Positions 57,242 through 59,907 of a stretch of 64,000 nt of DNA are shown in pieces. The position numbers and the translations under genes were made by a program. This DNA comes from Acidobacteriaceae bacterium. GTDB lineage: Bacteria > Acidobacteriota > Terriglobia > Terriglobales > Acidobacteriaceae. The first letter of the stretch is position 1, and each line of letters starts with the position of its first letter. The notes under the pieces were generated by a model. It was not told the DNA's origin. It searched no databases and saw only the letters and a program-made list of their open reading frames with translations. The stretch spans positions 1-64,000 of the forward strand of contig JANXUC010000178.1 of the NCBI GenBank assembly GCA_025352065.1, in the 5' to 3' direction.

Positions 57242-57403
57242 GGTGCCGACCGCTGTCCTCAAAGGTGGACGAGTACTTTGGGCAGGTGCAAGCATTCACA
57301 GAAGTGCTATACAATCCAACATCTTGGGTGCATTCTGGCGCGAATTTCAGAAGGCTCTGAATCCATTGCCGCCACCACCTCATCAAAGATCGTTGTGATA
57401 AAA

Positions 57404-57424
57404 GTTGAGTGATGTAGACTCAAG
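57404..57424 (+). promoter_or_regulatory. lon: HAIR-like HspR operator before lon
   Basis: GTTGAGTGATGTAGACTCAAG matches the HspR-associated inverted repeat CTTGAGT-N7-ACTCAAG at all but the first base, with exact 7-base spacing. It overlaps the AAGGAG ribosome-binding site and ends eight bases before the lon ATG. HspR control of lon by this site is known in actinomycetes; extension here is inference. Confidence 0.7.
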
Positions 57425-57432
57425 GAGACAGG

Positions 57433-59907
57433 ATGCCCCGTTCCGACAAGACTTCCGAAAAACCCGCCAGCCCCAGCAATCCGAAGCCAGCGGCAGAGTT
57501 GCCTCCAGCGGACCGCGCGCTACCGATTCTGCCCGTTCGCGACACAGTGCTGTTTCCGCATGCCGTGCTGCCGCTGACGGTGGGGCGTGAGAGTTCGATT
57601 CAGCTCATTAATTCGCTGGGCGAGGACAAGACAATCATCGTGGTGGCGCAGCGCGAAGCGCGCGTGGACATTCCGCAGCCCGGCGACTTGTACGCCATGG
57701 GTACCTTGGCGACCGTACACAAGGTAGTCAAGATGCCGAATCAGAGCCTTTTTGTGTTTGCGGAAGGCGTGGAACGCGTGCGCATGACCGAGTTCGCCCA
57801 AGTGGCACCGTTCATGCGGGCCCGCTACGAGTCCGTCGCAGAGGCCACTCTGGCTCTCAGTCCCGAAGTGGAAGCGCTGCAGCGCAATGTGTTGACCTTG
57901 TTCCAGCAGATTGTTGCTGGTTCACCTACGCTTTCCGATGAACTGGCGACGGTTGCAATGAACATCGACGAGCCGGGGCGGTTGGTGGATTTCGTAGCTT
58001 CCTCGTTGCCGTCGCTGGCTACTCCCGACAAGCAGGATGTGCTCGAAACTACGGACATTCGCGTTCGTCTGGACAAAATTAACCAGCATTTGGCAAAAGA
58101 GCTGGAAGTTCAGCAGCTGCGCAACAAGATTCAGTCCGAAGTGCAGGATCGCGTGCAGCAAACGCAGCGCGAATATTACCTGCGCGAGCAGATGAAGGCG
58201 ATCCAGAAGGAACTGGGCGAGGCGGACGAAGGCCAGCGCGATATCGACGACCTGCGCAAGAAGATTGAAGACGCGGGCATGCCGGAGGACGTCAAGAAAG
58301 AGGCCAACAAAGAGCTCAGCCGCCTCTCGCGAATGTCTCCCATGGCGGCCGATTTTGCCATTACGCGCAACTATATTGAGTGGCTGGCTGTGCTGCCCTG
58401 GAACAAGACTTCGGGCAGCGAAGTCGACATTGTCAAAGCCAAAGAAATTCTCGATGCCGATCACTACGACCTGCAAAAGGTGAAGGATCGGATTCTGGAT
58501 TTCCTTTCCGTGCGTCGCCTAAAGCCGAATATGAAGGGGCCGATTCTTTGTTTCGTTGGGCCCCCGGGCGTCGGGAAGACTTCGCTGGGGAAATCGATTG
58601 CTCGTTCTTTAGGGCGCAAGTTCGTCCGCATATCGCTAGGCGGCATGCATGATGAAGCGGAAATCCGCGGTCATCGTCGCACGTACATTGGCGCGCTGCC
58701 CGGACAAATCATGCAGGGCATTCGCCGCGCTGAGACGAAAGATCCGGTCTTCATGCTGGACGAAATCGACAAGGTCGGGCGCGATTTCCGCGGCGATCCC
58801 AGCTCAGCTTTGCTGGAAGCGTTGGATCCGGAACAAAACGCCACCTTCCGGGATAACTATCTCGACGTGTCGTTCGATCTTTCCAATGTGCTCTTCATCA
58901 CGACGGCGAACGTGCTGGATACGATTTCCGAGCCGTTGCGCGACCGCATGGAGATCATCGAACTGCAAGGCTACACCGAGGAAGAGAAAGTTCACATCTC
59001 GTTCAAGTACCTGATCCCGCGCCAGATTGAAGAAAACGGAATCACGGCGGAACAGATTGAATTTCCTGAAGAAGCCGTGCGCCACGTGATTCGGCATTAC
59101 ACGCGGGAAGCGGGTGTTCGTAACTTAGAACGAACACTGGGAACGATTTGCCGCAAACAGGCTCGCCGCATCGCCGAAGGGAAGACCGATAAGCTGACCG
59201 TCAATAAAGAAATCATCCAGGAATTTCTGGGCGGGATTAAGATCCGCGTGGAAGGCGAAATTGCCGAGCGCACAAAGCGCCCCGGCGTGGCGGTTGGACT
59301 CGCCTGGACTCCGGCAGGTGGCGATGTGCTCTTTATTGAAGCCAACAAAATGAAGGGCAAGGGCGGCTTCACCATGACCGGGCAGATTGGCCAGGTGATG
59401 CAGGAATCCATGCAAGCGGCGCTGACCTGGGTGCGTTCCAACGGCGCGAATCTTGGCATCGGCGACGACTTTTTCGCCAACAACGATCTTCACATCCATG
59501 TGCCGGCGGGAGCCATTCCGAAAGATGGGCCTTCGGCTGGCATCACCATGGCGACTGCGCTGGTCTCGTTGCTGACCGAGCGTCCGCTGCGTCCACACAC
59601 GGCGATGACGGGAGAAATCACGCTGAGCGGGAACGTGCTGCCGGTCGGCGGAATTAAAGAAAAGGTTCTAGCAGCGAAACGAGCTGGAGTTCGCGACGTG
59701 ATTCTTTCCAAAGAAAATAAGATGAACGTTGAGGAAGACATCACGCCCGAACAACTCGCTGGGGTAACCATGCACTATGTGAATACGATCGACGAAGTGC
59801 TGGCAATTGCGCTCTCAACCCCGGCGGCCACTTCGCCCAAACCGCAAGCCACCAAGGTCGCGAAAGCTGAAAAAGCGGAGCGCTCGATGAGCCAGCCCGT
59901 AGGGTAA
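57433..59907 (+). CDS. lon: Lon ATP-dependent protease
   Basis: An 824-residue cytoplasmic quality-control protease. The N-terminal substrate domain begins [19 protein letters not shown], followed by a coiled coil (about 205-280), the AAA+ domain with Walker [10 protein letters not shown] (376-384, K382) and Walker [11 protein letters not shown], and the proteolytic domain with the Ser-Lys dyad S701 (KDGPSAGIT) and K744 (GGIKEK). All core residues are present, and the length is typical of LonA. The tail ([20 protein letters not shown]) is low complexity. AAGGAG precedes the ATG inside a HAIR-like operator; a terminator hairpin lies at 59942. Confidence 0.97.

Follow-up and report, generated by a model that had tools for sequence, protein, structure and literature searches.

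A predicted HspR operator overlapping the ribosome-binding site of lon in Acidobacteriaceae

Control of lon by the repressor HspR through its HAIR operator has been described in Streptomyces lividans (Sobczyk et al. 2002, as cited in PMC9775585 and PMC13033682), with the HAIR consensus quoted as CTTGAGT-N7-ACTCAAG in the first of these two articles. Two other settings are relevant here. In Deinococcus radiodurans, HspR is described as acting alongside the heat-shock sigma factor Sig1 (PMC6888292), and in Helicobacter pylori and Campylobacter jejuni as acting with HrcA at heat-shock operons (PMC6102357, PMC7464140). The locus considered here lies in a stretch of 64,000 nucleotides from an Acidobacteriaceae bacterium, the whole of which is called the window below. 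As far as the cited accounts go, it resembles the S. lividans system in consensus, in having lon as its target and in that an HspR homologue is encoded. It differs in its host, a member of the Acidobacteriota to judge by the matches of lon to named records of that phylum, and in the presence of an alternative-sigma-type promoter element upstream of lon. The overlap of the operator with the Shine-Dalgarno sequence, at a nearly fixed distance from the ATG, is described here for the acidobacterial side alone. What is shared with D. radiodurans, on the account cited, is HspR/HAIR repression of chaperone and protease genes beside a dedicated sigma factor, although dual control in the acidobacterium is read from motifs alone.

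Table 1. Features around the lon start in the window.
Feature	Positions	Strand	Basis
Promoter-like element GAATCC-N16-CATCAAA, ECF-like, proposed lon promoter	57359..57387	+	Related element in family loci
HAIR-like inverted repeat GTTGAGT-N7-ACTCAAG, predicted HspR operator of lon	57404..57424	+	Direct sequence reading, conservation
Shine-Dalgarno AAGGAG, its AAG common with the operator right arm	57422..57427	+	Direct reading
lon, ATP-dependent protease La, 824 aa, ATG at 57433	57433..59907	+	TIGR00763 match

The lon product matches its family model with 951.5 bits, against a cut-off of 608. Before it, the operator reads in full GTTGAGT-GATGTAG-ACTCAAG, with one mismatch to the HAIR consensus and the exact N7 spacing. 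The initial annotation had claimed an HspR-type inverted repeat with exact spacing that overlaps the lon Shine-Dalgarno, and the letters bear it out on both counts. The overlap is best seen as an economy, the CTCAAG of the right arm supplying the AAG of AAGGAG. In its exact form, TTGAGT-N7-ACTCAA, the lon site is the sole occurrence in the 4.25-Mb genome, in which our own 4^-12 estimate gives about 0.25 such 6+6 sites by chance. Looser matches are not in excess: HAIR matches with up to three mismatches number 2 in the window against 2.01 expected, and those with up to two mismatches number 81 in the whole genome against 131 for a reversed control, which is fewer and no enrichment. The lon site therefore stands out by its exactness and placement, not by raw pattern counts.

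Conservation was assessed in related genomes. Orthologues of lon were sought in 41 genomes and matched in all, and 30 loci were taken, 23 from the family of the window (f1) and seven from a sister family (f2); lon starts for the f1 comparison were picked by hand among in-frame ATGs. Among the 23 f1 loci, 14 have a repeat that begins 26-29 bases ahead of the lon ATG. It is exact in seven of the 23 and has at most one mismatch in 12, compared with simulated chance values per 160-nt lon upstream region of 0 and 0.0004, respectively. Majority identity among the f1 sites is 92% and 96% for the two arms, 54% for the N7 spacer and 42-53% for the flanks. Conserved arms set in divergent spacer and flanks are typical of a protein-binding site. 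In most relatives the right arm is followed by GGAG or GGTG.

Some loci depart from this arrangement. Three in f1 (L051, L059 and L066) have TTGATA-N7-ACTC and then the ATG itself or A-ATG of lon, and three from named relatives (L100, L102 and L106, e.g. Granulicella, Edaphobacter and Silvibacterium records) are much like them. What precedes lon in these loci is a variant close to TTGATAGAGG-N3-ACTCAATG, the right arm of which enters or adjoins the lon start codon, with a Shine-Dalgarno-like GAGG in the spacer. In L046, L047 and L049, left out of the 14 start-near sites, TTTAGT/C-N7-ACTCAT overlaps the promoter-like element. A wider set of lon leaders (76 of 80 loci had enough upstream sequence) gave no match with at most one mismatch; sites with two mismatches occur there in L100, L101 and L106 from Acidobacteriota and in L165 and L177 from other phyla. 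In family f2 a site with at most one mismatch is found in none of the seven lon loci, although HspR and the dnaK sites are present. Because f2 lon is without the site while f2 dnaK keeps it, the HspR regulon seems to have gained or lost lon within the order.

The promoter-like element lies 17 bases upstream of the operator TTGAGT in the window (gap 57388-57404); in the majority of family loci its end and the operator are 2-3 bases apart. A search with G[AC][AG][TA]C-N15-17-CATC[TAC] or GTCTA placed a related element directly before lon in 21 of the 23 family loci, and before dnaK in 17 of the 21 family loci used (L229 and L231, in which the start was not located, were left out). As that pattern was drawn up by eye from these very loci, its chance rates of 1.4% and 2.5% are flattering. 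The genome-wide count is a fairer test, if with a reversed control that may not match dinucleotide content: the strict form GMATCY-N16-CATCHAA occurs 70 times in family f1 against 6 in the control, and the other genomes have 6 copies against 9. Among these 76 places in the 41 genomes is another copy in the window's own genome, at G000:C155:18279-18307. Fifty element loci were looked at and ten downstream proteins, chosen as likely stress genes or as recurring, were scanned, eight with a Pfam match and two without; many other element places are inside ORFs. Besides lon and dnaK, genes downstream of the element encode HrcA, an ECF sigma factor, a ferritin-like (Dps-like) protein, Fe/Mn superoxide dismutase and OsmC, BON and FecR proteins, each class seen in one genome. 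We take the element to resemble known ECF promoters. It probably serves as the promoter of lon, with recognition by an alternative (ECF-like) sigma factor, and may mark a family-specific ECF stress regulon.

An HspR homologue, P0001 (135 aa), is encoded in the window's genome at G000:C37:76270-76674. It scores 101.8 bits against the NCBIfam model HeatShock_HspR, with a cut-off of 105, over profile positions 3-90 of 92 (88 positions), and 54 bits against the best non-HspR model; all 17 aligned members match HeatShock_HspR. Of the 41 genomes, that of the window included, 39 have an orthologue with at least 61% identity, the exceptions being G007 and G019; in G027 and G033 the orthologue contains one TGA. 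In 30 of the 39 genomes with HspR, hspR and dnaK share a contig and are at most about 7 kb apart, and the order dnaK-dnaJ-(other ORFs)-hspR is seen in three regions from relatives that were looked at in detail. The expectation of an hspR gene is thus borne out. As for a place beside dnaK, most relatives with HspR show the linkage, but in the window's own genome hspR is on C37, apart from dnaK at the end of C155. No relaxed HspR site precedes hspR itself in the 23 family loci scanned, in which hspR is mostly downstream of dnaJ. Genome G007, listed as 100% complete, has no HspR match above 38% identity, yet its dnaK operator TTGACA-N7-ACTCAA is intact; this may reflect an assembly gap or another regulator.

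The initial annotation had also called for the same site before dnaK and clpB, and this check too comes out in favour, with an amendment as to form. N7-spaced sites do precede dnaK (TTGACA-ATAACTC-ACTCAT) and hsp20-clpB (TTGACA-ATAGAGC-ACTCAT) in the window's genome, as imperfect HAIRs with the right arm nearly kept. Their left arm TTGACA also forms a -35 box; a spacer of 17 bases separates it from a downstream TATCAT or TATGCT. No HAIR with up to three mismatches over 7-base arms was found at dnaK, hsp20-clpB or hspR; this strict search missed the first two because the arms there are TTGACA and ACTCAT, a form that was recognised by reading flanks and relatives. The relaxed pattern TTGASH-N7-ACTCAW picks out eight places in the genome (nine strand-matches, against three in the control), three of which precede lon, dnaK and hsp20-clpB. 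The other five, on C51, C60, C124, C142 and C169, fall within unrelated ORFs or at their start, and we regard them as chance matches. Among relatives, a same-spaced site stands before dnaK in 29 of 30 loci, a count that includes L233, which is without the site and omitted from the dnaK table; the hsp20 site is found with at most one mismatch in 16 of 30 loci. Three f2 loci (L254, L255 and L256) carry two HspR-like sites in tandem before dnaK, 26 bases apart. A second lon-like gene of 50% identity lies at G000:C47:42076-44373, with no HAIR match just upstream among the matches with up to two mismatches listed.

An unbiased scan of the 41 genomes with the exact pattern TTGAGY-N7-ACTCAA returned 20 places, 11 of them directly before lon. 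Of the full palindromes among them (n=9), seven are at lon and two upstream of groES-groEL. The number of matches is not above the reversed control (29 against 44 strand-matches), and the distinction from the control is one of placement only, not of overall count. Upstream of groESL in G006 (L180 1501-1519) the HAIR overlaps a CIRCE-like repeat, while in G014 (L179 1501-1519) such a repeat follows the HAIR in series; we named these repeats from what we take to be the CIRCE consensus. The arrangement makes double control of groESL by HspR and HrcA possible in these two genomes. It resembles groESL under HspR and HrcA in H. pylori and C. jejuni, so far as the cited articles describe it, with the difference that HspR of H. 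pylori is given as covering 70-80 bp (PMC6102357), and no site of such extent is evident here.

The site with its conservation, the hspR gene and the further sites with their placement lead us to think it highly likely that the inverted repeat is the operator of the MerR-family repressor HspR at lon, with relief on heat shock. Against it count the score of P0001, slightly under the cut-off, pattern counts no higher than the reversed control, the five relaxed sites at unrelated ORFs, the f2 lon loci without the site, the wider promoter-operator gap of the window and the dnaK site kept by G007 without an HspR match. We also judge that the HspR circuit known from actinomycetes very probably works in Acidobacteriota too. 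Three other explanations deserve weighing. The best placed, though we rate it as improbable, is an RNA thermometer: a small hairpin in the mRNA would conceal part of the Shine-Dalgarno until heat melts the stem. The repeat can form a stem of 6-7 bp with a 7-base loop that takes in the AAG. However, the folding energies of seven leaders do not stand out (z between -1.47 and +0.89). Nor do the 14 sites covary: pairing is as good in 107 of 500 shuffles and the covariation score as high in 436 of them, and in four of the 14 sequences the pair that closes the loop is a C-A left uncompensated. Neither folding nor covariation thus supports a Shine-Dalgarno-pairing stem with compensatory changes, and at dnaK the motif falls within the -35/spacer region, so that a transcript from that promoter would not include it. 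Somewhat less probable still is that the site belongs to another regulator of similar palindrome, such as a different MerR-like protein. The window's genome does hold five MerR_1 matches, but the three of the other four MerR proteins that were scanned against the HspR model score 24-47 bits, far below P0001, and the targets dnaK, hsp20-clpB, lon and groESL are those of HspR. Chance, or mere common ancestry of a short leader, can practically be set aside: an exact 12-base palindrome is not rare by the estimate above and counts do not exceed controls, but the frequency of the site among the f1 lon loci, far over the simulated rate, and arms kept while spacer and flanks diverge between genera rule it out for the family as a whole.

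HspR binding at lon, repression, feedback through DnaK, the transcription start and the sigma factor we infer as follows. In unstressed cells HspR would bind the DNA between the lon promoter and the start codon, at about +1 to +20 in most relatives, a position that follows from the element ending 2-3 bases upstream in most family loci. Bound there, it would stop initiation of lon transcription or promoter escape. In known systems DnaK is the co-repressor of HspR. On heat shock, unfolded protein would titrate DnaK, HspR would release the operator and lon would be transcribed together with dnaK and hsp20-clpB. Expression of lon would then need both the alternative sigma factor and relief from HspR.

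The initial annotation had favoured roadblock or masking of the Shine-Dalgarno over promoter occlusion. Masking is unlikely, as HspR is a DNA-binding repressor and the Shine-Dalgarno acts in mRNA. With so short a gap between element and operator, blocked initiation or escape appears more likely than a distant roadblock in most relatives. The roadblock part of the proposal is left standing in the window's own species, where a short-range roadblock may apply, given the 17-base gap between promoter and operator there. More tentatively, and with less than even confidence, we suggest that the family lon leader is a two-key heat-shock gate, in which an ECF-type promoter is the ON key. The OFF key would be an HspR operator merged with the Shine-Dalgarno (with the start codon in other genera, TTGATAGAGG-N3-ACTCAATG). 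The operator would be anchored to the translation start, not to the promoter, so that one sequence would serve as repressor site and ribosome-binding site, and the same pair of elements would head dnaK.

A literature search for HspR together with acidobacterial names turned up no relevant paper, and heat-shock regulation in Acidobacteriota appears uncharted. The data give a regulon open to testing, comprising dnaK, hsp20-clpB, lon and, in some genomes, groESL, and point to a stress promoter common to lon and dnaK. The suggestion that an acidobacterium would widen a lon circuit known from actinomycetes is supported by the hspR gene, the dnaK and hsp20-clpB sites and the conserved lon site. Together these sequences suggest that HspR governs lon beyond the actinomycetes as well: this is a known kind of circuit in a new phylum, with its operator built into the translation-initiation region.
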